This document shows, piece after piece, positions 24,409 to 64,000 of a stretch of 64,000 bases of DNA. The stretch's first letter is position 1. The number at the start of each line of letters is the position of its first letter. The stretch comes from Barnesiella viscericola DSM 18177. GTDB taxonomy: Bacteria > Bacteroidota > Bacteroidia > Bacteroidales > Barnesiellaceae. Location: the NCBI RefSeq assembly GCF_000512915.1, contig NZ_CP007034.1, forward strand, positions 1,364,001-1,428,000, in the 5' to 3' direction. Below the pieces are notes generated by a model. The model was not told where the DNA came from and did not search any database. It saw only the letters and a list, made by a program, of their open reading frames with translations. A program made the translations under genes and the position numbers.

Positions 24409-24450
24409 CACCACCCCGGCCTCACCCGAGCGCCGGGGTGGTGTCTTTTT
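24409..24450 (+). terminator. Terminator of the GH2 gene
   Basis: CACCACCCCGGC and GCCGGGGTGGTG form a perfect 12-bp stem with an 11-base loop, followed by TCTTTTTAT. Confidence 0.9.
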
Positions 24451-25301
24451 ATCCCCCCTCCCCGCCTGCTGGATTTTCAAGACCATGTCGCGTATTTTCT
24501 TCGCCTGGATACCGCATCGTAGCGCGGAATGACCGAAACGACGCGTGCAGCGTTCCCCTTCCGCCTTTATCGGGCCGGGAGGAGGCCAGCCAGCCGAGGA
24601 TAAGGGCGAAGAGTGTCTGAGCGCAGCGAGTTCCGCAGCCCCCGAGGGCGGTGCCAGCCGCCGAGCGACAAAGCCCGATAACAGCGGCGGCGCTTCTTGG
24701 TTCGTTCTTCTCGCTGCTGAGAAGAATGAACATCACCCGGGTATTCCCTGGATTCCGCGTCGCAGCGCGGAATGACTGAGCCTCCACGTCGCAGCACGGT
24801 ATGACACAACCCGTCACCCCGCACCCCGATGCGGGGTCCAGCGGCACGATAAAACGTGTAGGCTGAAAAGGACACCGGGTAAAAAGCAAGCCCAGAGATT
24901 TCTGGATACCGCGTCGTAGCGCGGAATGACCAAAACGACGCGTACAGCGTTCCTCCTCCTTTATCGGGCCGGGAGGAGGCCAGCCAGCCGAGGATAAGGG
25001 CGAAGAGTGTCTGAGCACAGCGAGTTCCGCAGCCCCCGAGGGCGGTGCCAGCCGCCGAGCGACAAAGCCCGATAACCGCGGCGGCGCTTCTTGGTTCGTT
25101 CTTCTCGCTGCTGAGAAGAATGAACATCTCCCGGCATTACACCCGGGTATTTCCTGGATACCGCATCAAGTGCGGTATGACACGCCCCGTCACCCCGCAC
25201 GGCGATGCGGGGTCCAGCGGCTCGATAAAACGTGTAGGCTGAAGAATATACCAAACAGCAAGCCCGGGTATTCTTGAATACAGCATCAAGCGCGGTATGA
25301 C
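24451..25301. repeat. Patch of modular palindromic repeats (two cores, about eight satellites)
   Basis: An 850-bp non-coding patch. It holds two copies of a core of about 170 bp (24564-24733 and 24958-25130), nearly identical and ending in the hairpin TTCTTCTC-gctgct-GAGAAGAA. Short palindromes surround them, each TGGATxCCGCnn..nnGCGGxATGAC or GTCACCCCGCA..TGCGGGGTCCAG: about 24505-24533, 24749-24775, 24813-24840, 24902-24930, 25153-25182, 25189-25216 and 25270-25302. A third core lies at 47691-47866. Open frames here on either strand are by-products of the repeats. No transposase or integrase is present. Confidence 0.9.
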
Positions 25302-25333
25302 AAAAAGGCGACAGGTGATAAACACCTGTCGCC
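25302..25333 (-). terminator. Terminator of the leucine-rich repeat gene
   Basis: GGCGACAGGTG and CACCTGTCGCC form a perfect 11-bp stem, followed on the minus strand by five T. Confidence 0.85.
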
Positions 25334-25368
25334 CACACCCGAAAGGGAAAAATCAATCTCGTGAAAAT

Positions 25369-27031: not shown

Positions 27032-28684
27032 TTAGTCAATCGAACCGTCTTGCTCCAGCTTCAAGGTCTTGGTGGGCTGGTCGCAAACCTCGGTGGGGCC
27101 AAAGTATTGGATAGGACCGGGGTATACGTAGCAGGTGTTCATAGCCCACTCGTCGCGATGTGCAGCAAAGTACTTGAAGGGGGCACCGTCGAGGTGAACG
27201 AGGGCTTTTTGGATCACGGGTTTCATCTCGCCGTGACGACGCTCCATGTTCATCATCATGGTCACAGGCACACCGCCGGCAATCCATTCGCTGGCCGGTT
27301 TGGTGGTGTTGCGTACCGACGACATGTAACCGGTGCGGCCTTCGCCTACGAGCAACGATGCGGTGTAACCCAGCGAGTAGCAGTAGTCGGCATCGAAGTT
27401 GGAGGGGTCGGCGCAACGGCCTTCATATCCGAAGAAGTGGTACTGGGTAGCGAACTTGCCGTCGTATTTGCCTTCGGCTTTCATCTCGGCCAGGCGACGT
27501 CCTACCATTTCGCCCAGCAGTTTCTCGGTCTCGATGAGCGATACCTGTACGTTTCCGTGGGGGTCGCGGTCGAGCGTGAGCTGACGGGCTACACCTTCGG
27601 GCAGGCTGGCATAGATGGCCGAGTTTTCGGGCGAGAGGTGTTTGATGATGTAGTTTCTCTGCTCCGATTTCTTGATCATGGCAAACTCGGAACCGTTCTC
27701 GGCCAGGTAGTCGTTGAGTTCGGCGATGAGTCGCTTCATGGCGGGAATGAACTCGATGAGGCCTTCGGGAATCAGCACGGTACCGAAGTTGAAGCCTTTG
27801 GCGGCACGGGCGGCTACGATATTGGCAATGTTGTTGACGATGTCGTCGAGGGTCATCTGCTTGGCCTCAACCTCTTCGGAAATCAGGCAGATGTTGGGTT
27901 GTGTCTGCAAGGCGCATTCAAGAGCGATGTGCGAAGCCGAACGTCCCATCAACTTGATGAAGTGCCAGTATTTCTTGGCCGAGTTGCAGTCGCGTTGGAT
28001 ATTACCGATTACCTCGGAGTATACCTTGCAGGCGGTATCGAAACCGAAGGAGCACTCGATCATCTCGTTCTTCAAGTCGCCGTCGATGGTCTTGGGGCAA
28101 CCGATTACCTGTACGCCGGCACCGATCTGTTTGTAGTATTCGGCCAGCACGCAGGCGTTGGTGTTGGAGTCGTCGCCACCGATGATAACCACGGCCTTGA
28201 TGCCCAACTCCTTGATGATTTCGAGACCGCTGTCGAACTGTTCTTTCGTTTCGAGTTTGGTGCGGCCCGAACCGATGATGTCGAAACCACCCGTGTTGCG
28301 GTAGTCGTCGATGATATCGGCGGTAAGTTCCATGTATTTATGGTCGATGAGTCCGCCCGGGCCCAGCAGGAAACCGAAGAGGCGGCTATCCTTGTTCATG
28401 GCTTTGAGTCCGTCGAAGAGACCCGAAATTACGTTGTGTCCACCGGGAGCCTGACCACCCGAGAGGATTACGCCCACGTTGATGGCGGGATACTCTTTCT
28501 TGGGGGCTGCTTCAAAACGGAGCACGGGCATGCCGTAGGTATTGGGGAACAACTTGGCGATAGCCTCCTGGTCGGCCACCGATTGCGTGGCTTTGCCCTC
28601 GACGATGGTTACGCCGTTCTTAATGGCTTCGGGCAGCTTGGGCTGATACGAAGCACGAGCAGTTTGAAGTGCACTTTTCTTCAT
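27032..28684 (-). CDS. pfp: Pyrophosphate-dependent 6-phosphofructokinase
   Basis: Interconverts fructose 6-phosphate and fructose 1,6-bisphosphate using PPi, reversibly, in the cytosol. At 550 aa it belongs to the long PFP class. The active-site GGDDSNTNA has Asp-Asp where ATP enzymes have GGDG, and [10 protein letters not shown] has the Lys typical of PPi enzymes. The glycine-rich [13 protein letters not shown] binds the phosphoryl donor. An ATP-type pfkA is also present at 53.6 kb, so both enzymes coexist. It is monocistronic with its own terminator. Confidence 0.94.
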
Positions 28685-28934: not shown

Positions 28935-29552
28935 CTATCGGACCACGCCTCGCAGCATCGATGCGGCTCTATCGGGTTGCCCCAATATCTCAAACACGAG
29001 GGCCGCACAGGTAGAACAGACGACAGGGACCAGCGCATCGCTCATTTCATAGCCGTTATATCGCAAGCGGGGATAGGGCACATAACGAGCCGTTTTCACC
29101 TGATGCTCCTCGACGCGCAACGGCAACGAGTAGTAATCGAGATACTTGACTCCCTCCTCGTCCGACAAGACACACACCGGATTGACTGAACCTCCCCGCG
29201 TGTAGGGATTGAATTGCAACTCATACAGCGGCGAGGTGCGGTCGATAAACGTGGTCACAGGCTGACGCCACCCTTCCATACAGAATTCGGTCATGCGCCA
29301 CACATCTTCGGGCAAAGTGACCCTTCCGCTCCCATCGGACCGCCGCTCAGGTTCCAAATCAGAAGCGCAGTCGTTCTGGGGCAGCTCCGATAGGGGGGTC
29401 GACACCCACACGGCAAGCACGGCATCGGCCATCTTGTTCTGGATATAGGTCTCGATATTGATACCCGATTTCACTGTAACGGAGCCTTCGTCGGTCAGCT
29501 CTTCCATGTTCGTCTTTACCCGTTGAACCAAATCGTCTAAACTTACCCGCAT
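28935..29552 (-). CDS. Phage-type protein of unknown function (205 aa)
   Basis: Not recognised. It begins MRVSLDDLVQRVKTNMEELTDEGSV and continues with a region on a conserved-looking FNPYTRGGSVNPVCVLSD and a C-terminal VVCSTCAALVFEILGQP. No signal peptide, transmembrane helix or nucleic-acid motif is seen. Its placement three base pairs after the tail-fibre-like gene, at the end of the capsid cluster, suggests a head-completion, neck or tail structural protein; this is inference from gene order. GC content and codon use resemble host genes. A strong terminator follows. Confidence 0.6.
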   Translation of the reverse strand: MRVSLDDLVQRVKTNMEELTDEGSVTVKSGINIETYIQNKMADAVLAVWVSTPLSELPQNDCASDLEPERRSDGSGRVTLPEDVWRMTEFCMEGWRQPVTTFIDRTSPLYELQFNPYTRGGSVNPVCVLSDEEGVKYLDYYSLPLRVEEHQVKTARYVPYPRLRYNGYEMSDALVPVVCSTCAALVFEILGQPDRAASMLRGVVR

Positions 29553-29555
29553 GGC

Positions 29556-30659
29556 CTACCCCCTTTTCTGCTTCAAGACATTATTCTCATCGACATAAAT
29601 ATCGCCTTCGACCAGGGTATCGCTCCACTGTTTCAACCGACAGTTCAACCCGTTGAGCGACAGTTGGCTGGTATTCAACGTCTGGCCCGCACTATCGAGT
29701 TGCGACAGGGTAATCTGTTGTGGCGAAATCGACAGCTCGCGTGAGCCGGAGTCATCGAACTGAGACATCAACAGTCTTACCTGGTTATTGTTATCCCAGT
29801 CGATAATCAGAACCTCCTTGTTGTTTCTCCAAAACTTTATTCCCCGTTCAACCGGGCTTATCACAATTTCGCTGTCACCTCCGGCCGGGACCCGCAGTTC
29901 TCCTGCCGTAGACAGAAAAGTCCCGGTCTCCAAGTGGTGGATAATGCCATCGCCCAACTCCCAGGTAGAGCCAAACCCTTTAACTCGAATGGCCTGTTGC
30001 CGATCGAGAACAATCAGTTGACCCGTAGGGAAATACAGTTGGTCGGCCACCGCATAAAAATGGGTTACCTCCTCCCATTTGTCCGATTCGTCGGGAATCT
30101 CTCCGGTAACACTCCCCGCCTGCTTCACCCGATAGTATTTACCCAGGTAGTAGACTACATCGGTAAATCCATCGGCATAAATATAAGTCGATGATTCGGT
30201 CCAACTTCCCCGATACATGTAGGACAAGTGTACCGCATCATCAAGCGATATGGGTGTGACATAATCACGCCAGGTGGTACCGTCCCACACCAGTACAATC
30301 ACAGCCGCCGAGGTAGTCGTTACCGTCAAGGGCGACACGCCTTTCAATGCCAGGAAATGATACGACCCGGCATGACCGGCAATATAGACAAAACAGGCTT
30401 CCTTTCCACTCTCGACGTTGGGACTGAATGAGTTTGTGTCGGTAATGATTCCGAAAAAGGGAGCCGGAGCCGCATGATTCGAATCGTACCACGAACGCCC
30501 GGTGGCGTCCCAAACCCAAATCGACTGGGTCTTGCCGTTAACAAAAAACTCACCGGGCAAACCGCCCTCGGGATAGGCCGAGAGCAGGGCATCAAGCCCG
30601 TAGAAAAATCCCAGGCACCCGTTTTGCCCGCGCAAATGGCTATGTTCTTTCACTTTCAT
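29556..30659 (-). CDS. Phage fibre or receptor-binding-type protein (367 aa)
   Basis: A beta-rich protein with short aromatic repeats such as WVWDATGRSWYD (about 48-59) and VLVWDGTTWRDYVTP (about 135), a pattern seen in phage fibre and carbohydrate-binding proteins, then a middle GYYRV-like segment (YYLGKYYRVKQAG) and a C-terminal stretch with alternating polar residues (QITLSQLDSAGQTLNTSQLS) fitting a trimeric fibre. It ends VYVDENNVLKQKRG-like (DIYVDENNVLKQKRG). The role is inferred from composition and position. It overlaps the preceding 127-codon gene by 4 bp, so they are translationally coupled. Confidence 0.55.
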   Translation of the reverse strand: MKVKEHSHLRGQNGCLGFFYGLDALLSAYPEGGLPGEFFVNGKTQSIWVWDATGRSWYDSNHAAPAPFFGIITDTNSFSPNVESGKEACFVYIAGHAGSYHFLALKGVSPLTVTTTSAAVIVLVWDGTTWRDYVTPISLDDAVHLSYMYRGSWTESSTYIYADGFTDVVYYLGKYYRVKQAGSVTGEIPDESDKWEEVTHFYAVADQLYFPTGQLIVLDRQQAIRVKGFGSTWELGDGIIHHLETGTFLSTAGELRVPAGGDSEIVISPVERGIKFWRNNKEVLIIDWDNNNQVRLLMSQFDDSGSRELSISPQQITLSQLDSAGQTLNTSQLSLNGLNCRLKQWSDTLVEGDIYVDENNVLKQKRG

Positions 30660-31039
30660 CGTCTTTTCCCTTTCTTTAATTGTGTGAATACAAGGTGGAA
30701 CCGCTCGGCTGCCTGTTCAATCAGAGTCGGGGTAGAGACCTCCTCGTCGGTAAGTCCATACGGTTCCTTTCTCAAATAGTCCCGGGCAGCCTGCCACGAG
30801 CGTATGCCGGGGACGAGGGTATAAGTCTCGGGCTCGGGTTGGGCTTTGCTCCCTTCGAGCAGCGTAAACCGTTTGCCATATCCCCGGCTCTGTTCCAGGG
30901 CCCGTTGCAACGCCTCGTCGTCGGTCGAAAAAAGTCCGTTCACCCCGTCGTGAGCATAAAAATGGACCCGCTGGGGAACTCCCTCGACAACAACCGATGT
31001 GGACAGATTGCCCAGGCTCGTTCGATAAATCTTGATCAT
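30656..31039 (-). CDS. Small phage-type protein of unknown function (127 aa)
   Basis: Not recognised. It starts MIKIYRTSLGNLSTSVVVEG, contains VHFYAHDGVNGLFSTDDEALQRALEQS and ends with a basic tail (QLKKGKRR). It is probably soluble and mixed alpha/beta. It sits directly after the capsid gene's terminator and overlaps the fibre-like gene by 4 bp, which suggests a head or head-tail joining role. There are no catalytic motifs. Confidence 0.6.
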   Translation of the reverse strand: MIKIYRTSLGNLSTSVVVEGVPQRVHFYAHDGVNGLFSTDDEALQRALEQSRGYGKRFTLLEGSKAQPEPETYTLVPGIRSWQAARDYLRKEPYGLTDEEVSTPTLIEQAAERFHLVFTQLKKGKRR

Positions 31040-31185: not shown

Positions 31186-32586
31186 TCAATCGCCGCCGGG
31201 GATTACCGGCTCGATGCGCATGTGAGCGGCCGGATAGCGCAACGTCAAACAGCTGGCCTCGGTCAGCACCAGAGCATCGGTATTGCGCACACCCGATTTT
31301 TTCAGGTCGAGCTCCTGGGCATCGAACGGCACATGCGACCACTTCTGGATAAACTCGGGGTCGAACACGAAACCGTAGTCGCTCATGCCGCAATCGTCGA
31401 AGACCTCGGAGTAGAGCACATAGAGTTTACCGAACTTCGAGCGGATTTCCGAGAAGTCGATACCCCACATCACCTTGTCCTCACGAGCCATCACCACCTT
31501 GGTCAACTCGATCTTGTTGATGCGGCCGATGAACGACGAACCACCGATGAGGATCTTGCGCTTGTTGCCGCCGTTGCCCGTGAAGGCCTGACGCATCATG
31601 TCGATGAGGTCGTTTTGCGTCATCTCGACCGACGGGTTGTAGGTGTAGTGGTTGCCGGCCTGCCACCAGATACCGCCCGTGAGCATCACGTTCTCCTTCT
31701 TGCGGGGGTCGAAGATGGTGTTCTTCACCCCGAACATAAAGCTCTTCTCCATGCCCAGACGCATGTCGTAGATGGCGGCCTCCTCGGCATCGGAGAAGTC
31801 CCACTCGACCTCCTTGTTGGCAATCTTCTGGAAGGTCGACTGCTCGATCTGCATCTTGAAAATCTGGCAATAGTTCTGGCTCTTGACGGGCAAGGCGGCA
31901 AACTGAGCCGTCTGCACGTCGAGCTCGGTAGCGGCACGTCCCATGCGGATAAGCGGCGTATTCACAGGAATTGAGGGCACGCAGTTGGTCACCGTGCCAA
32001 TCTTGGCTCCGTTGATGGGATAGACCGTGAGCGAGCCGGTCTCCTCGTCTTTGGAAGCAATGTAGAGCACCAGGTCGGCATTCGACTGGGTACCGTCGGG
32101 CTCATAGCCCTTCACACCCTGCACGAGAATCGTCTCGGACACCTCGAAGATGCTGTTGTCGACGGCATCGATCTTGGCCTTCTTGTGCGTGTCGTTGGCC
32201 GAACCCGAGGCGGGGGCCGTATAGGCCGTCTTCAAATAAGACTTGGTAGGCTTCACGTCGACCGAGTAGTAATCGACAATCATCGACGACGCCTTGCGGG
32301 CCCCGTTCCAACGCGACAGCTGGTCGATAGGCGTGGACATGGGCCGAATGCGCACAATGCGCTTATCTACCTCGTTGCGCAACAGCGAAGGACTGTTCTC
32401 GCGCACAATATCGGTCGTGAGCGGCTCGTTGGTCACGAGCTTGCCGCCCGACATGCCCGGGATAATGGCGGCCAAAGCCAGGCCACCGTCAAACAGGCCC
32501 GACCAGATGTGCCAGCACACCACCAGAGCAATCAGTCCCACCAGCCAAAGCAGTGGAGTTTTCCACTTCATCAAAAACTTTTTCAT
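31186..32586 (-). CDS. SU10/HK97-type major capsid protein with hydrophobic N-terminus
   Basis: Likely phage major capsid protein (466 aa). The region from about 56 carries the SU10-like (DUF5309-type) pattern: LTTDIVRENSPSLLRNEVD, RIVRIRPMSTPIDQLSR, then PLIRMGRAATELDVQT, and LGMEKSFMFGVKNTIFDP with TGGIWWQAGNH. Unusually, residues 1-45 read MKKFLMKWKTPLLWLVGLIA then LVVCWHIWSG, a clear membrane-spanning or signal-like helix ahead of the fold. ATG 32586 with GGAAAG upstream is chosen over 32619. An internal Met at 45 (base 32454) has no visible ribosome site. The scaffold-like gene lies upstream, a terminator downstream. Confidence 0.75.
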   Translation of the reverse strand: MKKFLMKWKTPLLWLVGLIALVVCWHIWSGLFDGGLALAAIIPGMSGGKLVTNEPLTTDIVRENSPSLLRNEVDKRIVRIRPMSTPIDQLSRWNGARKASSMIVDYYSVDVKPTKSYLKTAYTAPASGSANDTHKKAKIDAVDNSIFEVSETILVQGVKGYEPDGTQSNADLVLYIASKDEETGSLTVYPINGAKIGTVTNCVPSIPVNTPLIRMGRAATELDVQTAQFAALPVKSQNYCQIFKMQIEQSTFQKIANKEVEWDFSDAEEAAIYDMRLGMEKSFMFGVKNTIFDPRKKENVMLTGGIWWQAGNHYTYNPSVEMTQNDLIDMMRQAFTGNGGNKRKILIGGSSFIGRINKIELTKVVMAREDKVMWGIDFSEIRSKFGKLYVLYSEVFDDCGMSDYGFVFDPEFIQKWSHVPFDAQELDLKKSGVRNTDALVLTEASCLTLRYPAAHMRIEPVIPGGD

Positions 32587-32696
32587 CGTTTCTTTCCAAT
32601 TTAAATTCAACAAAAACATAAGATTTCAAAAAAACAGGTTTGTAAATAGTTTCACTCATTCCCGGCAGGGGACAGATGTCCCCCCCGACGGCCGGA

Positions 32697-33455
32697 CTAC
32701 AAGTCCCACACACTGCGGCGACGGCGGTTCCCGAAGAAGGGCGACTGGTCATCACCGGCCTCGAAGCTGCCGCTGTTGCGTAAAGGGGGTAACGAGTCGC
32801 CCGAACGCTCACGCTTCTCGAAAACGATGCGGGCATTACGGCCGCGCACCTCGCCGTCGTGCTCGGCACACGACAGGTCGCTGTCGTAGTGCAGCCCCTT
32901 GAAGAGCAACTCCAATACCTCGTCGTTCAACTCGCCCATGAACACATGGTTGCACAAGTGGTACACCCGGTCGAGGAACGACTCGAACTCACTGTCGCTC
33001 ATACCCTTGTCGGCCTTGAAGCGCTCCATGCAACGCGTGCTCTTCTGCAAGTTGTCGCGCATCTGCGATTCCAGTTCGTTGAAGCGGGCCATGCGCGACA
33101 GGTACTCATCGTTGGCCCGGCGTACCTCGGCCATGCGCCCCTCGTCCTGGGCACAGTCGAGCATGTCGCGCCCGAAATAGCGCACACACGCCACCAGCGC
33201 ATCGTCGCCCCCTATCACGTCCGAGATGAAAGCCCCCATCTTGGGATTGGCCGTAAACAACTTGCACAGTTTGCCCTGGTCGTCGGCCAGCCGTTCATAG
33301 CGTTCGTTGCGATACGAGTCATACTCCTCCAAGGCATCGAACAGCTCGTCGTCGTTGTCCAGGCGTCGGGCCGGGAAACGTTGCAAGATTTTCTCCACCA
33401 GCAAATCGCGGGATCTGCGTCGGTTGCGATTTTCTTTCTGATAATTCTTTTCCAT
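32697..33455 (-). CDS. Coiled, charged phage-type protein, possible scaffold (252 aa)
   Basis: Not recognised by a named motif. The protein is strongly charged and mostly helical: MEKNYQKENRNRRRSRDLLV, DELFDALEEYDSYRNERYER and LESQMRDNLQKSTRCMERFK suggest coiled coil, and the C-terminus is basic (FFGNRRRRSVWDL). Its place immediately upstream of the capsid gene, its size and composition match phage scaffolding or capsid-assembly proteins. That role is inference. The start follows an AT-rich leader with a TTACTTTG near-promoter box around 33500. Confidence 0.6.
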   Translation of the reverse strand: MEKNYQKENRNRRRSRDLLVEKILQRFPARRLDNDDELFDALEEYDSYRNERYERLADDQGKLCKLFTANPKMGAFISDVIGGDDALVACVRYFGRDMLDCAQDEGRMAEVRRANDEYLSRMARFNELESQMRDNLQKSTRCMERFKADKGMSDSEFESFLDRVYHLCNHVFMGELNDEVLELLFKGLHYDSDLSCAEHDGEVRGRNARIVFEKRERSGDSLPPLRNSGSFEAGDDQSPFFGNRRRRSVWDL

Positions 33456-33681: not shown

Positions 33682-35322
33682 ATGGCTATCACACCGTTTA
33701 AGTATCAACCCATGTTCCCGCTGGGCGAAGATACGACCGAGTACTATCTGCTTACGAAAGACTATGTGTCGGTAAGCGAGTTTGAAGGGAAACCTATCTT
33801 AAAAATCGCCAAAGAGGGTCTCACCGCCATGGCCAACGCTGCCTTCCGCGACGTATCGTTCATGCTGCGCCGCTCGCACAACGAGCAAGTGGCCAAAATC
33901 CTGCACGACCCCGAAGCCAGCGAAAACGACAAATACGTGGCCCTCACCTTCCTGCGCAATGCCGAGGTAGCCGCCAAAGGCGTACTGCCCTTCTGCCAGG
34001 ATACGGGTACGGCCATTATCCACGGCGAAAAAGGCCAACAGGTATGGACCGGATACTGCGACGAAGAGGCCCTCTCGCTGGGCGTCTACAAGACCTACAC
34101 CGAGGAAAACCTGCGCTACTCGCAAAACGCTCCCCTCTCGATGTACGAAGAGGTGAACACCAAGTGCAACCTGCCCGCCCAAATCGACCTCGAAGCCACC
34201 GAAGGCATGGAATACCGATTCCTCTGCGTGACCAAAGGCGGCGGCTCGGCCAACAAAACCTACCTCTATCAAGAGACCAAAGCCATTCTCAACCCCGCCA
34301 CCCTCGTGCCCTTCCTCGTTGAGAAGATGAAGACCCTCGGTACGGCAGCCTGCCCGCCCTACCACATCGCCTTCGTCATCGGCGGTACCTCGGCCGAGAA
34401 GAACCTGCTCACCGTCAAGCTCGCCTCGACCCACTACTACGACAACCTGCCCACCACGGGCAACGAATACGGCCGCGCCTTCCGCGACGTCGAGCTCGAG
34501 AAACAGGTACTCGAAGAGGCTCACCGCATCGGCCTCGGTGCACAGTTCGGTGGCAAATACTTTGCCCACGACGTGCGCATCATACGTCTGCCCCGTCATG
34601 GCGCCTCCTGCCCCGTAGGTCTGGGCGTAAGCTGCTCGGCCGACCGCAACATCAAGTGCAAAATCAACAAAGACGGTATCTGGATCGAGAAACTCGACAG
34701 CCACCCCGGCGAACTCATTCCCGAGGAACTGCGTCAGGCCGGCGAAGGCAATGCCGTGAAGATAAACCTCAACCAACCCATGAGCGAGATTCTCAAAGAG
34801 CTCGACAAATACCCCGTAGCTACCCGCCTCTCGCTCAACGGCACCATCATCGTGGGCCGCGACATCGCACACGCCAAACTCAAAGAGCGCCTCGACCGCG
34901 GCGAAGACCTGCCCCAGTACATCAAGGACCACCCCATCTACTACGCCGGTCCCGCCAAGACCCCGAAAGGCATGGCCTGCGGCTCGATGGGACCCACGAC
35001 AGCCGGTCGTATGGACCCCTACGTCGACCTCTTCCAAAGCCACGGAGGCTCCATGATCATGTTGGCCAAGGGTAACCGCAGCCAAGCCGTCACCGACGCC
35101 TGCAAGAAACACGGCGGCTTCTACCTGGGCAGCATCGGCGGTCCGGCCGCAATCCTCGCCCAGAACAACATCAAGAGCATCGAGTGCGTCGAGTATCCCG
35201 AGCTCGGCATGGAGGCCATTTGGAAAATCGAGGTAGAAGACTTCCCTGCATTTATCCTCGTCGATAACAAGGGCAACGACTTCTTCAAACAGATCAAACC
35301 CATCTGCCCCGCCCACAAATAA
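33682..35322 (+). CDS. fumB: Class I fumarate hydratase (Fe-S type)
   Basis: Hydrates fumarate to malate in the cytosol using a [4Fe-4S] cluster; in Bacteroidales it works mainly in the reductive direction during fumarate respiration. The 546-residue single chain joins the alpha-type (1 to about 290) and beta-type (about 340-546) domains of two-subunit enzymes. Cys in [27 protein letters not shown] and others are probable cluster ligands. The C-terminal half has [11 protein letters not shown] and [11 protein letters not shown]. The fum symbol letter is provisional. A strong terminator follows. Confidence 0.94.
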
Positions 35323-35410: not shown

Positions 35411-36052
35411 CTACTTTCCCCGCTTCTCCTTCTCGAGAAGATGCTTTACCGCCAACCGATAGGTATAACGCACCTTCGGGTCATCTTGATCCCAAGAGGT
35501 CAGTTCATCGAGAACCAACTGTGGAAATTTCTTGCTAATATCTCTCAGAGCATTTCCTACCGATTTTCTCACATACTCACTCGAATCGGCCTTATGCTTA
35601 CTCAAAAAAACGACAGCCTCCAAAGGGTGTTCCTTGAAATAGGGCCGCGAGGTCCATATCCTCAGTCCTTCGGTAACAGCCCGAACCACATTCGGGTAAC
35701 CATCGGCCAACCATTCGGCAATAAGAGGCAATGCTCTTTCATACCCTCGCTCTTTACAAATAAAATCAAACGACTTGGCCAGCATCTCCTGCACACGCCA
35801 ATTCTCATCACGGCTTACCCGCTCTTTCAAAAAACTCAGGGCCTTTTCATTCTCCACCCCTACATACCCCAATAAAACGACCGACAACATACGCACCTGA
35901 TAAACCTGATTCTCAAACAATTCGAGTGAAAGGGCATAACATTCTTCATCACTATACGATGAGTGTATCTGATGAGCAGCATCTAAAATATGCTGGAATC
36001 CATTCTCAACCGTTACAATATAGGCTATAATCTCTTCAATATTCATATTCAT
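35411..36052 (-). CDS. HEAT-repeat DNA alkylation repair (AlkD-like) protein
   Basis: A 213-residue all-helical protein with tandem HEAT-like units, for example YQVRMLSVVLLGYVG, NWRVQEMLAKSFDFIC, YPNVVRAVTEGLRIWT and SEYVRKSVGNALRDIS, as in AlkD DNA glycosylases that wrap damaged DNA. AlkD enzymes use a catalytic Asp-Trp pair near the substrate; the segment EGLRIWTSRP holds a Trp, but I cannot confirm the Asp. So it may be an active glycosylase or a non-catalytic relative. It could also begin two codons later. Adjacent genes are unrelated. Confidence 0.78.
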   Translation of the reverse strand: MNMNIEEIIAYIVTVENGFQHILDAAHQIHSSYSDEECYALSLELFENQVYQVRMLSVVLLGYVGVENEKALSFLKERVSRDENWRVQEMLAKSFDFICKERGYERALPLIAEWLADGYPNVVRAVTEGLRIWTSRPYFKEHPLEAVVFLSKHKADSSEYVRKSVGNALRDISKKFPQLVLDELTSWDQDDPKVRYTYRLAVKHLLEKEKRGK

Positions 36053-36085
36053 TATATTATGGTTACCGTATCCAAGTCGTGCAAT

Positions 36086-37108
36086 TCAATCGATATTTTG
36101 AGAATGAGATTTTTGTTCCATCATCTCGCGCACACTGTTTACCTCGTCAATAAGTTGTGTTTGTGAAGGCAGATACAATTTATATTCACTGGCCAGTATG
36201 GTTTTATTATCTTCGGGAAGAGCCATCTTCACGGCCGTATCGTTCTTGCTGGTACACAACAGGATACCTACGGTGGGATTCTCGTCGGCCATCTTTTCCA
36301 CCCGGTCGTAATAGTTGACATACATCTGCAACTGTCCCAAATCCTGATGGGTCAGTTTGCCGGTCTTCAACTCAACGACCACAAAACATTTCAACAACCG
36401 GTTGTAGAAAACCAAGTCGGCAAAAAATTCGTCATCTTCCAACAAGATACGTTTCTGCCGAGCCACAAACGTGAACCCTTGCCCCAGTTCGAGCAAGAAG
36501 TGCTGCAAATGAGTGATAATGGCCGATTCCAAATCTTTTTCATAATAAGCCGCCTGAGGCTTCAATCCCAAAAATTCCAAATACATGGGGTCTTTGATAA
36601 TCTCCTGCGGCGACTGCGGTATACGCTCCTTTCGCGCCACAGCCAACACCGACTCCTTGTCGTTGCTCAACAACAGCCGTTCGTACAACTGAGAGTTTAT
36701 CTGCCGTTCCAGCTCCCGGGCCGTCCACGAATTGTTCACGGCCTCCAATTCGTAATACTCCCGTTTATCCACATCAGGTATCTGTATAAGAGTCCTATAC
36801 TGAGTCCAATTCAATTGTGAACGCAGTGCGTTCTCAATCGGATACAAGCGATAAAACTGGCGACAGAAAGAAAGTTGTCGCACCGAAAATCCGCTGCCAT
36901 AGTCGGGTTCCAACTGCTTGGCCAAATTCTTTATCAGGTAACTGCCGTAGTCGGCCCTGTCTTTTCCCTGCTGCTCTTCCTCAAAAATGCGGCGTCCCAA
37001 CTGCCAATACATCTGAACCCGACAGAAATCCACACTACGCACCGCATGAGCACGAGCCGCATCGATAATGCCGCGAATATCGTTCAAAAACAGTTCTTCC
37101 TTCTTCAT
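36086..37108 (-). CDS. PDDEXK nuclease-domain protein (DUF1016/YhcG type)
   Basis: A 340-residue protein of the YhcG family. An N-terminal helical DNA-binding-like part (LNDIRGIIDAARAHAVRSVD ...) precedes the C-terminal PD-(D/E)xK nuclease core: FFADLVFYNRLLKCFVVVELKTGKL with Asp and the Glu-Leu-Lys motif. Relatives are thought to process DNA in restriction-like or mobile contexts, but the target is unknown. The start is set at 37108: a TACTTTTG promoter box (37116-37123) lies just upstream and a longer frame would cross it. Confidence 0.85.
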   Translation of the reverse strand: MKKEELFLNDIRGIIDAARAHAVRSVDFCRVQMYWQLGRRIFEEEQQGKDRADYGSYLIKNLAKQLEPDYGSGFSVRQLSFCRQFYRLYPIENALRSQLNWTQYRTLIQIPDVDKREYYELEAVNNSWTARELERQINSQLYERLLLSNDKESVLAVARKERIPQSPQEIIKDPMYLEFLGLKPQAAYYEKDLESAIITHLQHFLLELGQGFTFVARQKRILLEDDEFFADLVFYNRLLKCFVVVELKTGKLTHQDLGQLQMYVNYYDRVEKMADENPTVGILLCTSKNDTAVKMALPEDNKTILASEYKLYLPSQTQLIDEVNSVREMMEQKSHSQNID

Positions 37109-37115
37109 ATCTCCG

Positions 37116-37123
37116 CAAAAGTA
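37116..37123 (-). promoter_or_regulatory. -7 box deciding the start of the PDDEXK gene
   Basis: TACTTTTG on the minus strand leaves a leader of only about 7 bp before the ATG at 37108. Confidence 0.6.
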
Positions 37124-37204
37124 TTTACTTGTAAGAGTTGTATATACAAATATAAACAACTCCTTTCAATTGACCAAATGCAGAAAAATCCCCCACAAAA
37201 CAGG

Positions 37205-47290: not shown

Positions 47291-47923
47291 TCTCCCCCAC
47301 TCCGCACTCGATGAAGCGTCTTGTCACCCCGCACAACGATGCGAGGTCCAGTTGTGAGCCGCTTGTGGAAAACATAGGAACGTACAACCCGTGCGTTCTA
47401 AAAAGAGGTACGAGCAAGAAAACGACCCAGATGTGAAATCACTGCCCGAGTATTTCTGGATTCCGCATCACGGTGCGGAATGACAGAACCACCGCGTCGG
47501 AGCGCGGTATGACTCTTCCCGTCACCCCGCACGGCGATGCGGGGTCCAGAAGGAGAGGAAGGATTTTGAGGTATTCACGCCCGAATATTTCCTGGAATCC
47601 AGGTCAAGCCTGGAATGACAGACGGTATTTCTGGATTCCGCGTCGTTGCGCGGAATGACTGGAACGATGCGTCGCAGCGTTCCCCCTCCGCCTTTATCGG
47701 GCCGGGAGGAGGCCAGCCGACCGAGGCATGAGGGCGAGGATTGTCTGAGCGCAGCGAGTTCCGCAGCCCCCGAGGGCGGTGCCAGCCGCCGAGCGACAGA
47801 GCCCGATAACAGCGGCGGCGTTTCTTGGTTCGTTCTTCTCGCTGCTGAGAAGAATGAACATCTCCCGGCATTACACCCGAGTATTTCCTGGATACCGCAT
47901 CTAGTGCGGTATGACACAGCCCG
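47291..47923. repeat. Second patch of modular palindromic repeats (one core, about seven satellites)
   Basis: It holds a third core copy at 47691-47866, closely matching those at 24.56 and 24.96 kb, with the same hairpin at its end. Satellites include about 47326-47353, 47456-47483, 47489-47514, 47518-47550, 47590-47620, 47631-47660 and 47885-47915. The last satellite's GTCACC tail overlaps the stop codon of tatD. No coding gene is supported in the patch. Confidence 0.9.
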
Positions 47924-48691
47924 TCACCACTCCCCGAACAGGCGGAAAGCATTGGCCGTAGTAGCCGCCTCGACCTCGGCAACCGTCACTCCCAGAATAT
48001 CGGCTATGCGCTGGGCCATGCGGGGCAGATACGACGGTTCGTTGCGCTTGCCCCGGTAGGGCACGGGGGCCAGGTAGGGGGCATCGGTCTCGAGCAGAAG
48101 GCGGTCGATACCCACCTCGCGCACCATCTCTTCGAGGTGGGCGTTCTTGAAGGTGACGATGCCGTTTATCCCGAAGTAATAATCGCCCAACGTGCGCAGG
48201 GTGCGCACCTCGTCGGCCGTGCCGGTGAAGCTGTGGAATACCCCGCGGAACGACGGCACCCGTCCCGACTGCAACAGCGACACCATCTCGGCAAAGGCCT
48301 CGCGGCAGTGGATAATCACGGGCAGGTCGAGCTCGACGGCCCAACCCGTCTGCACGGCAAAAGCCTCCTCCTGCTCCCGGGCGAAACTCTTGTCCCAGTA
48401 GAGGTCGAGCCCTATCTCGCCCACGGCGCAATAGTCGCCGGCGAGCAGCAGCGCACGCGTACGGTCGAGCTGTTCGCGGTAATCGGCTTCGACCGAGGTA
48501 GGGTGCAGCCCCATGGCCATGCGGCAATAGCCGGGGTAAAGGTTGTGGGTGGCCTGCATGGAGGTCACCGTGGTGAGGTCGACATTGGGCAGAATCACCC
48601 GCTCCACGCCCGCCTCGCGGGCATGACGCACCACCTCGTCGCGGTCATCGTCAAACTCTTCGAGATAAATATGGGTATGCGTATCAATCAT
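47924..48691 (-). CDS. tatD: TatD-family metal-dependent hydrolase
   Basis: A cytosolic TIM-barrel DNase/hydrolase (255 aa). Metal-binding motifs: DTHTHIY, GEIGLDLYW (Glu), VIIHCREAF (His), FHSFTG (His) and LLLETDAPYLAP (Asp). The start is MIDTHTH at 48691; the frame runs 71 codons further upstream without protein-like sequence. It overlaps the preceding gene by 8 bp and is probably co-transcribed with it and the polyprenyl synthase gene. Confidence 0.93.
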   Translation of the reverse strand: MIDTHTHIYLEEFDDDRDEVVRHAREAGVERVILPNVDLTTVTSMQATHNLYPGYCRMAMGLHPTSVEADYREQLDRTRALLLAGDYCAVGEIGLDLYWDKSFAREQEEAFAVQTGWAVELDLPVIIHCREAFAEMVSLLQSGRVPSFRGVFHSFTGTADEVRTLRTLGDYYFGINGIVTFKNAHLEEMVREVGIDRLLLETDAPYLAPVPYRGKRNEPSYLPRMAQRIADILGVTVAEVEAATTANAFRLFGEW

Positions 48692-60955: not shown

Positions 60956-61687
60956 TTACAAAGCCATGATTGTATGATAGACTTTATCTATAAAGCTCTC
61001 ATAATCATTTAGTATAACACCATTCCCAAAATGATTATAATCATGTTCTGTCAACGACAGAGATGGATTCAATGATTTATAATAATCCATATATTGTTCA
61101 CTATTCCTTAAATCATCATTTTCAGGAATATGCACAATATAGATCAAGGTTTTATTGGGTGTATGAAAATAGATTTCCGAATTATCCCTCGAAAGAATTA
61201 CATACTTTTCCGCATTATGTTCCGTAAAAGATTCCCATTTATGAAGTTCTCCCGAACGTTTATAATACGGGAGCTTATCTAGAATAATAAAAATCTGGAA
61301 ATAAGGGCAATTACCGCTTCGTATATTAGCCGTTTCCCCCAACATATTTTCAAAATAATTATTCGAGTTTTGAGAATAATTCTGCATCACAAACTTAACC
61401 GATAAACCGGCAACGGCAATATTCCCTTTTTTTACTGTTATATCCACTGCTTTATCGATATAACGACCTTTTATTTTTACTTCTTTTCCTTCTTTATATC
61501 CTTGAGAAAAAACGACATAATCTGAACCCAATCTCTCAGCTAAATCTTGTGCAATAGCCCCGTGCAGAGGTTTAAGTTTGGCCGTACTCCTAGATGTTCC
61601 CGATTCCAGGAACTCTCTAAATGAATTAGACAATACTCTTAAAAAGGTCGAGTTGTCGAGAGGGAATGTTATTATCTCTTCTTGCAT
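60956..61687 (-). CDS. Putative restriction endonuclease (type II, AT-rich operon)
   Basis: A 243-residue candidate restriction enzyme, judged from its overlap with a methyltransferase. A possible PD-(D/E)xK core is IDKAVDITVKKGNIAVAGLS with the following VKFV: Asp82, then Ser96-Val97-Lys98, so the usual Asp/Glu is Ser, a variant. Next is NYFENMLGETANIRSG. The recognition sequence cannot be read. It overlaps the methyltransferase by 62 bp. Base content is far more AT-rich than neighbours, suggesting transfer. Confidence 0.65.
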   Translation of the reverse strand: MQEEIITFPLDNSTFLRVLSNSFREFLESGTSRSTAKLKPLHGAIAQDLAERLGSDYVVFSQGYKEGKEVKIKGRYIDKAVDITVKKGNIAVAGLSVKFVMQNYSQNSNNYFENMLGETANIRSGNCPYFQIFIILDKLPYYKRSGELHKWESFTEHNAEKYVILSRDNSEIYFHTPNKTLIYIVHIPENDDLRNSEQYMDYYKSLNPSLSLTEHDYNHFGNGVILNDYESFIDKVYHTIMAL

Positions 61688-63110
61688 AGTCTAAATTTAT
61701 TTTATAATTTATATACAGTTCTATATCCTTTGAATTAAAGGTATAATATCCCCCGTTCTTATAATTTTTAAGAAGTGATATATAGCGAATAAACTCTTCA
61801 TTCCGTATTATTTTCTCCAGTTGAGTATATGAAATGTGTTCATTCGGGAGAATATATAAGCCGCTGTATACCCCGCTTCCCGGGGGTACTTCGGTCAATT
61901 TTATACTATTAATATCTTTAATGCAAGTATTTATCGCGTACTTTTCTTTGCAAACATCTTTCAAGGCCTGAGCTCTACCATATAGGAACCAACCTGGTGT
62001 CTCCTCCTTTTTTCTCCCTTTCAATAACTTTTCTGCATTGTTGTCCAAATACGCACACACATTCTTGTCTGATGATATCTGTTCATAGGATAAAGGATTT
62101 CCTTCTTTATCGTATGGGAAAAAAGCACGAGACCATTTTCCTGTTGATGCTTTTACAACAGGTATAGTATACTTGTCAAAAGGAATATTTCCTATAAATA
62201 TTTCATCATACAATGTAGCAAAACCATTCTTTACTCGAATATACTGTTTTACATTTGAGTATCTAATACGCTTCAACAAATCCAACTCTTTTCTATTAGA
62301 GAAATAGAATTTATTCCGGATATTAATCTCATCGTATGATAAGAAGTCAATACAACAGATATGATTCTTTTGTGAATCATATACATCATATTCAATCCGA
62401 TTATTATTTTCTCTTTTCTCAAAGCGGGAAATCATGGTATAAGTAGTAGCTTTGAATGGTTGGAAATGTCCTAAATCCACAACTCCAGTCAAATACTTAT
62501 TATAAATAATTTCATTTCGCATATTTTCTCCCGCCAAACTATTCAACCAAGAACTCGGTGTAATATAACATAAAGTTCCCCCAGCAGCCAACATGCGAAA
62601 ACCCAATTCAAAAAATACCAGGAACAAATCGGTCATTCCCCCACTCGCAAACGTAAATCTCTTCACGTCAATGTAATCAGACTCCAAATTATGAACCCTC
62701 ACATAAGGAGGATTTCCCACTACGAAGTCCATCTTACCATCATACTTTCTCTCTTTTAAGGCATTACCTCTAACAATATCCCAAGCAACATCGGTAATCC
62801 CAAACTGAGAAGATATATGATTTAAATTTTCGATACACTTACCGTAAATCTCCGAATCAATTTCTATTCCATGGATATACTCTTGCAATTCTTTTTTCAG
62901 TAACTGAGTTTCATTACTGTATTTTAGAAAAGTTCGACAATAACGCAGAACAATTTCACACAAAAACGCGCCATCTCCACAGCTATTATCAATGATATGT
63001 TTCCTTAATATGTAAGGAGATTCCACATAGCCACAATAATCTAATATGCTTATGACTAAATAACCAGGAGTAAAAACTTGACCGTTATGTTTTATTTGTC
63101 TACTTCCCAT
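61626..63110 (-). CDS. N6-adenine DNA methyltransferase (type II, TaqI/Eco57I-like)
   Basis: A 494-residue SAM-dependent DNA methyltransferase. Motif I (SAM binding) is DNSCGDGAFL at 41-50; motif IV (catalytic) is NPPYV at 133-137. A C-terminal target-recognition region follows (about 250-490). It protects host DNA from the partner endonuclease. Its upstream TATCTTTG box (63118-63125) lies within 8 bp of the ATG, so the message is almost leaderless. AT-rich composition marks it as acquired. Confidence 0.88.
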   Translation of the reverse strand: MGSRQIKHNGQVFTPGYLVISILDYCGYVESPYILRKHIIDNSCGDGAFLCEIVLRYCRTFLKYSNETQLLKKELQEYIHGIEIDSEIYGKCIENLNHISSQFGITDVAWDIVRGNALKERKYDGKMDFVVGNPPYVRVHNLESDYIDVKRFTFASGGMTDLFLVFFELGFRMLAAGGTLCYITPSSWLNSLAGENMRNEIIYNKYLTGVVDLGHFQPFKATTYTMISRFEKRENNNRIEYDVYDSQKNHICCIDFLSYDEINIRNKFYFSNRKELDLLKRIRYSNVKQYIRVKNGFATLYDEIFIGNIPFDKYTIPVVKASTGKWSRAFFPYDKEGNPLSYEQISSDKNVCAYLDNNAEKLLKGRKKEETPGWFLYGRAQALKDVCKEKYAINTCIKDINSIKLTEVPPGSGVYSGLYILPNEHISYTQLEKIIRNEEFIRYISLLKNYKNGGYYTFNSKDIELYINYKINLDYARRDNNIPSRQLDLFKSIV

Positions 63111-63236: not shown

Positions 63237-64000
63237 ATGGGGATTGTACAACACGACGAAACGATAACGATTGAAGCCAACCGACTGCGAAACGAACAAC
63301 TGAAACGATTCTATTCGCCCGAGACGGGCGAGGGGAGCGACACGGGCGACCGCCGACCGATACGGATCGGCGACGCTCCGCTGCCCCTGCAATATATCCC
63401 GGCGGCCATGTTTGACGAGCCGCTGGTCCAACAGCTCGCACAGGCGGGCAGCCTCGCGGGCTATCTGCGGCAGCAAGGGGTCGACACGCCCGGCGAAGGG
63501 CACACACTGCTACCCAACGGAGAGAGCGACGACGAGGGCGACATCTCACCCCTCCTGTCGCTGTGGCGGGAGTGGATACGGGTGCGCATTCGATACGACT
63601 TTGAGTTCTGGGCATACAGTTTCGTGCGCATCAAGAACAAGCTGGGGGCCGACGACATACCCTTCCGGCTCAACCGGCCACAACGCCGCATACTGGGTAT
63701 GCTCGAATCCATGCGCACCACCGACCGCCCCATTCGCCTCATCTTGCTCAAAGCCCGCCAATGGGGCGGCTCCACCCTCATACAGATTTACATGGCCTGG
63801 ATACAGCTGGTGCACCGGCGCAACTGGAACAGCGTGATATGCGCCCACATCAAGGAGGCGGCGGCCAACATCAAGGGCATGTACAGCAAACTGCTGGCCA
63901 ACTATCCCGACTGGCTGCTCGACGAGGGCAAGCCCAAATTCCGCCCCTTCGAGCGCATGGCCAACACCTCGGTCATCGTCGGGCGCGACTGCCGGGTCAC
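63237..64000 (+). CDS. Phage terminase large subunit, N-terminal part (cut by window end)
   Basis: The frame stays open to the window edge (254 codons). It begins MGIVQHDETITIEANRLRNE, then has a terminase ATPase segment: RLNRPQRRILGMLESMR and LLKARQWGGSTLIQ at about 171-183, where RQWGGST is the adenine/P-loop region of phage terminases, followed by WIQLVHRRNWNSVICAHIKE. Terminases package phage DNA into capsids. The nuclease domain lies outside. GC content is host-like. It is divergent from the restriction operon and about 30 kb from the capsid cluster. Confidence 0.82.
   Translation, partial: MGIVQHDETITIEANRLRNEQLKRFYSPETGEGSDTGDRRPIRIGDAPLPLQYIPAAMFDEPLVQQLAQAGSLAGYLRQQGVDTPGEGHTLLPNGESDDEGDISPLLSLWREWIRVRIRYDFEFWAYSFVRIKNKLGADDIPFRLNRPQRRILGMLESMRTTDRPIRLILLKARQWGGSTLIQIYMAWIQLVHRRNWNSVICAHIKEAAANIKGMYSKLLANYPDWLLDEGKPKFRPFERMANTSVIVGRDCRV

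Follow-up and report, generated by a model that had tools for sequence, protein, structure and literature searches.

Within the window analysed here (a stretch of 64,000 nucleotides from the complete 3.08-Mb genome of Barnesiella viscericola), we describe a major capsid protein (MCP) that begins with a hydrophobic helix whose codons are translated and are under purifying selection within the genus. On a reading to which we give about even credence, it is the MCP of a domesticated short-tailed-phage particle whose genes are spread over the chromosome in the manner of a gene transfer agent (GTA), and the helix is a phage-derived membrane-targeting element that rhomboid proteases would trim in the related phages.

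Translated on the minus strand from the ATG at 32586, the protein starts with MKKFLMKWKT and continues directly with residues 11–28, PLLWLVGLIALVVCWHIW, so that the helix follows a Lys-rich start exactly where a previous sequence-only reading had placed it. Another in-frame ATG at 32619, upstream of Met1, would give a protein of 477 aa. We compared the nine genomes of the genus by Nei-Gojobori dN/dS, whose values are rough because synonymous sites are near saturation. The codons upstream of Met1 gave 1.67 (gaps in 32 of 99 cells), compared with 0.108 for residues 1–10, 0.134 for 11–28, 0.077 for 29–41, 0.087 for 42–60 and 0.039 for 61–466 (0.049 for the whole MCP). This contrast in dN/dS and gaps around Met1 makes 32586 the likely start and the helix a translated segment, and the start at 32619 was discarded on the same grounds. 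An internal start at Met45 was also discarded, given that only 10 of 83 aligned homologues have Met there and that the helix codons are under selection. The proposed translation from 32586 is thus borne out, and most homologues do not begin at the internal Met. Across the same 83 homologues, alignment columns 12–27 stay hydrophobic while residue identities vary, and position 39 is Ala in 62.

The body of the protein is a capsid of the SU10/HK97 type, a first assignment on which profile, model and structure search now agree. PF17236 (SU10_MCP) matches residues 65–459 (E 1.4e-50, 172.9 bits versus a cut-off of 24.1), the AlphaFold model has a mean pLDDT of 80.8 and a pTM of 0.66, and Foldseek finds HK97-fold capsids as the best PDB matches, with 9in6 (Vibrio cholerae phage VP1, E 2.2e-21) at the top and crAss001, P1 and SU10 after it. 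The capsids of SU10, VP1 and crAss001, among these best structural matches, have the HK97 fold in common with the MCP, but the Vibrio phage MCP that we checked is without an N-terminal helix. In this sole outgroup examined, the expectation that capsids of the class usually start at the fold therefore held. The model shows a helix at residues 11–33 and low confidence at 33–48 (about 40–57 per block at 31–60); because this poorly ordered stretch of some 25 residues joins helix and fold, the helix does not lie directly before the capsid fold as originally described.

A 4.5-kb cluster (genome positions 1392935–1397455) holds the MCP gene in second place; it encodes, in order, a 252-aa protein, the MCP and proteins of 127, 367 and 205 aa, and related phages have homologues of all five in their head module (Table 1). 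For the four besides the MCP, Pfam and NCBIfam provided no useful name. The 252-aa protein, whose homologue precedes the MCP in related phages, can be assigned by position as the scaffold-position gene, and the 127-aa protein is the counterpart of the gene that follows the MCP there. A short motif like RRxSVWD is seen at the end of the scaffold-position gene (loose pattern matches in 63 of 137 loci). The 205-aa protein is 32% identical to gp54 of the Bacteroides phage BF1-TP2 and 33% identical to p215 of L010, a locus from the viral collection. The fibre-like protein of 367 aa evolves fast, with 50–64% identity within the genus versus 87–99% for the MCP, which is found as one copy in each of the nine genomes, and could be a receptor-binding part.

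No integrase or replication gene was found in the 4.5-kb cluster, and neither a terminase nor a portal lies within it. An active prophage at this site was discarded because the flanks are housekeeping genes and the portal and terminase are located elsewhere. Among 80 named loci taken with 3-kb flanks, fumarase stands beside the cluster in 15; it adjoins the cluster in all nine genus genomes, 2/2 of family f61, 2/3 of f29, 3/3 of f69 and 2/2 testable of f89, and in none of three each in f22 and f26. Two side observations concern the surroundings. Positions 35411–37159 hold HEAT/DNA-alkylation-repair-like and YhcG (DUF1016) nuclease genes, present among the nine genus loci in the window and L037 only, a pair that probably inserted recently between the fumarase gene and ubiE. 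Overlapping ORFs at 24449–25356 and 47522–47982 have near-identical translations in both stretches, which indicates dispersed intergenic repeats.

Table 1. Features of the capsid cluster, its flanks and the dispersed phage-type genes (window positions; genome positions refer to the source genome, G000).
Feature	Window position	Strand	Genome position	Details
Major capsid protein (MCP), HK97 fold, SU10_MCP	31186..32586	-		466 aa; PF17236, AlphaFold, Foldseek
Hydrophobic-helix codons, residues 11–28	32503..32556	-		dN/dS 0.134; model helix 11–33
LALAA motif codons, residues 36–40, possible cleavage region	32467..32481	-		alignment
252-aa protein in scaffold place	32697..33455	-		phrog_22323 E 2.2e-37; 30% to L010 p251
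127-aa structural-cluster protein	30656..31039	-		phrog_23743 E 0.00083; 29% to L010 p133
367-aa fibre-like protein (putative role)	29556..30659	-		N-part 39% to L010 p425
205-aa possible head-tail adaptor (putative role)	28935..29552	-		phrog_22135 E 1.1e-19
Fumarate hydratase, chromosomal flank	33682..35322	+		adjoins cluster in several families
Phosphofructokinase, flank on other side of cluster	27032..28684	-		
Large terminase (TerL), solitary, runs off window	63240..64000	+	C1:1427240-1429279	
Portal			1148792-1150687	~245 kb from MCP cluster
Hub-like protein			1132348-1134888	
Homologue of phage gene V_182			1154802-1155422	

The packaging genes are found elsewhere on the chromosome. TerL, a complete gene, lies about 31 kb from the MCP cluster, matches the TerL of L010 at 52% over 676 columns and carries the motif LKARQWGGST, invariant in 26 aligned sequences. 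Beside it, at 60956–63110, we noticed by eye a DNA methyltransferase-like gene together with another gene; the two may form a restriction pair. Of 295 genomes from the order, 22 have the MCP, and TerL is present in exactly these 22, apart from a weak partial match in one more genome. Among 27 genomes with the MCP, TerL was present in 27 and the portal also in 27, one merely a fragment (G272, 117 residues) and one with an internal stop; the portal match of G033 (G033:C14:58644-60029) contains a single in-frame TAA, a possible sign that the element is in decay in that genome. The hub was recovered in 25 of the 27, three of them split or weak (G272 has no hub, and that of G001 is split over two contigs), and in the f26 genomes searched it was absent or matched weakly. 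Where the dispersed type shares a contig, TerL and MCP are 13 to 92 kb apart, and in the f26 genome G146 they are close together. Compact prophages account for G027, one of the 27, and for second MCP copies in G142 and G238, two genomes (L058, L059) that have a prophage with the same MCP type besides the dispersed element.

These genes have also diverged together. For MCP, TerL, portal and hub, the correlations between protein distances are r 0.81–0.94 (0/999 permutations as high), and for the four against fumarase they are r 0.74–0.84 (0/999 permutations reaching this), values that partly reflect the contrast of the genus against the rest. Within the genus dN/dS is 0.113 for TerL, 0.064 for the portal, 0.110 for the hub and 0.014 for fumarase. 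In the MCP tree (midpoint root) the window's clade comprises 111 rows with support 0.944, made up of genome loci and five viral-collection rows (L010, L217–L220), with the rhomboid-bearing phages outside it. Phage structural genes are therefore fixed at several host loci and inherited vertically under purifying selection, as in GTAs, and domestication, one of three options originally raised for this protein, is well supported by the dispersed, co-occurring and co-diverging genes. By its gene pattern this set is a GTA-like element, which may form particles and transfer DNA. L010, nested in the clade beside a Coprobacter locus, has a hub and (by eye) an antirepressor-like ORF, so it may be a live phage; it may represent a phage near the origin of the element or an escape from it. 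The portal had no match in the 27.5-kb record of L010, which is uninformative as to its absence.

The helix extends far beyond Barnesiella. At a hydropathy threshold of 1.8 (mean of 15 residues), it was called in 92 of the 97 distinct MCPs that belong to the window's clade, a fraction biased towards helix-bearing relatives because the genome loci are the nearest 80 of 159, and in 44 of 45 distinct MCPs outside the clade, mostly phage. Two of 141 loci (the incomplete L228 and the anchorless L256) were left out before counting; the viral loci exclude the 22 weakest of the 80 matches listed (L274–L295, E 8e-15 or weaker) and include near-duplicates (L241–L244 share one N-terminus). Helix-bearing N-termini have a net positive start and a variable hydrophobic core. 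Since this MCP family has the helix as a common trait, both in phages of Bacteroidales and in the domesticated relatives of these phages, the novelty implied for a single protein does not stand. In family f26, probably the Muribaculaceae, 109 of 119 genomes match the MCP (G328, G366 and G397 weakly), and they represent 29 of its 30 genera. Among its 104 strong MCP matches, 50 have open frames below 445 aa, too short for the helix, which is therefore dispensable in this family. One f26 locus (L054, 8509–12397) is compact, with a short scaffold-position ORF, a helix-less MCP, a 182-aa ORF and a 485-aa portal. In many MCPs of Muribaculaceae or Prevotellaceae loci (L165–L215) the helix ends in LGGC or LTGC, resembling a lipoprotein box.

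Phage genomes suggest what the helix might be for. In HK97-type capsids an N-terminal delta domain may be removed during assembly by a prohead protease. Between the head genes of the phages considered here, where a prohead protease would be expected, lies a six-helix rhomboid instead. A rhomboid-profile match is found 981–1991 bp upstream of the MCP in 44 of the 54 viral loci with both MCP and terminase (7 of 61 viral-type loci, without MCP or TerL, were excluded), the terminase being beyond the rhomboid in 39 of the 44 and elsewhere in five. All ten phage rhomboids scanned match PF01694, eight above the cut-off, and in 22 of 22 aligned sequences the Ser, both His near it in helix 2, the Asn and the last His are invariant, residues that we take to be catalytic. 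After the helix, the phage MCPs display V-x-M/T-A followed by D/E/A/N, i.e. a rhomboid-like site VxMA↓(D/E)A; among 42 distinct N-termini, V is found in 37, M/T in 40, A in 40 and then D/E in 26. Rhomboid substrates are described, in the part of PMC2941825 drawn on here, as needing a small P1 and hydrophobic P4 and P2′, with a negative P1′ mentioned for an artificial substrate; the phage site fits in its P1 and P4, but its P2′ is mostly Ala and not the large hydrophobic residue preferred there.

Helix and rhomboid are nevertheless not tightly coupled, given that the helix is present in 44 of 44 viral loci with a rhomboid and is kept in 9 of 10 without one nearby. Since it is near-universal either way, only phage L273 favours coupling: it has neither helix nor rhomboid, and its MCP starts near the would-be mature end. 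No rhomboid-profile ORF was found at any fetched GTA-type locus; such ORFs were restricted to phage-type loci and the G027 prophage. The source genome does have two tandem host rhomboids (1947481–1948624). Most bacteria possess rhomboids, and those of the host are uninformative here because they were matched in 14 of 14 control genomes as well. Judged from sequence, cleavage of the MCP after the helix is plausible, considering the rhomboid neighbour in phages, the conserved VxMA site and the one phage, L273, that has neither helix nor rhomboid.

Combining these observations, the helix in Bacteroidales phages would hold the newly made MCP, and hence the growing prohead, at the inner membrane, and the phage rhomboid would cut after the conserved VxMA site and so release the capsid. 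The domesticated lineage would have lost the viral rhomboid and, outside f26, mostly kept the helix under selection; the LALA↓A site of Barnesiella might then be a substrate of signal peptidase or of one of the two host rhomboids, or it might stay uncut. Membrane insertion and assembly at the membrane, the latter another of the options originally raised, are steps that we infer. The main weakness of a membrane anchor is topological: the K-rich start predicts an N-in orientation, which would place the capsid domain beyond the cytoplasm, and packaging ATPases cannot function there. The conflict could be resolved if the helix were cut off early, formed a hairpin or lay peripherally on the membrane. 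The wider proposal, that a class of Bacteroidales phages builds HK97-fold proheads tethered to the inner membrane by a transmembrane helix on each capsid subunit and matured by a phage rhomboid, and that several families domesticated them into a GTA, dropping the rhomboid and sometimes the helix, we put forward tentatively, as falling a little short of an even chance.

In one alternative the helix never enters the membrane but acts as a hydrophobic N-arm, or as a segment like the delta domain, and packs on the scaffold or on neighbouring subunits in the prohead. DNA packaging has to be cytoplasmic, the poorly ordered linker of the AlphaFold model would let the helix reach neighbours, and the scaffold-position gene has its short conserved C-terminal motif in 63 of 137 loci. 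However, the length, K-rich start and freely varying hydrophobic core resemble a transmembrane segment, and a membrane protease recurs as the MCP neighbour in phages, and we consider a non-membrane arm unlikely. An ordinary Sec signal peptide, removed by signal peptidase I or, in some lineages, by signal peptidase II, with export of the MCP as the outcome, seems improbable to us. An n-h-c layout with an AxA-like end is seen in 90 of 92 helix-bearing clade members (loose pattern, by inspection), and many Muribaculaceae loci have LxGC lipobox-like ends, but an exported MCP could not be packaged by TerL, yet TerL is intact and conserved. The phage VMMA sites, moreover, have Met at -3, a residue that is poor for signal peptidase I.

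Other doubts concern the element and not the helix. It is somewhat unlikely, though worth consideration, that the domesticated particle made by the dispersed genes does not transfer DNA but has another role, for instance in killing or as a compartment. The portal stop in G033 and, in the f26 genomes searched, a hub that is absent or weakly matched would suit such a role, but the presence of terminase, portal and MCP together in 27 of 27 genomes argues for DNA packaging. That the cluster is a decaying prophage remnant is hardly credible: the 4.5 kb do lack integrase and replication genes, but the frames are open and dN/dS is 0.05–0.11 in MCP, TerL, portal and hub, in nine of nine genomes.

Should the preferred reading, a domesticated particle with a phage-derived membrane-targeting helix, be true, tailed phages would have a route of capsid maturation that is bound to the membrane and in which an intramembrane enzyme serves as the prohead protease, and a GTA-like element in 109 of 119 f26 genomes would amount to a standing route of gene exchange in gut Bacteroidales. 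Literature searches, with bioRxiv preprints outside their scope, found no Bacteroidales GTA, capsid rhomboid or signal-bearing HK97 capsid, and the text of a 2025 rhomboid review is without the words 'phage', 'viral', 'virus' and 'capsid'. For Bacillota a 2026 gut survey reports GTA-like packaging, and for Bacteroides it reports lateral transduction; in the part of it drawn on here, GTA-like packaging is confined to organisms outside the phylum of Bacteroidales (PMC12946183).

Among known systems, the HK97-type delta domain is an N-terminal MCP segment that may be removed, as we propose for the helix, but the segment here is a hydrophobic helix, and its candidate protease, a rhomboid, is itself integral to the membrane. 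The closest phages are BF1-TP2, BKO1-TP3 and BS-TP4 of Bacteroides (PQ571263, PQ571269 and PQ571277), with MCPs 41–42% identical and the same kind of helix, and with scaffold-position, adaptor-like, portal and terminase homologues in common with the Barnesiella element. They differ in their compact genomes of 64–68 kb and in the rhomboid-annotated gene beside the head genes in all three (in one case by structure match, under another product name). The Faecalibacterium agent FpGTA is described, in the part of the source drawn on here, with two loci about 125 kb apart (PMC12946183), and in comparison with that description the Barnesiella element belongs to another phylum, is unrelated to it by any test made here, has an MCP with a membrane helix and encodes a putative particle. 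In its general design it resembles the established GTAs (RcGTA, BaGTA and FpGTA), in all of which, as here, phage-derived structural and packaging genes lie at several loci and are vertically kept.
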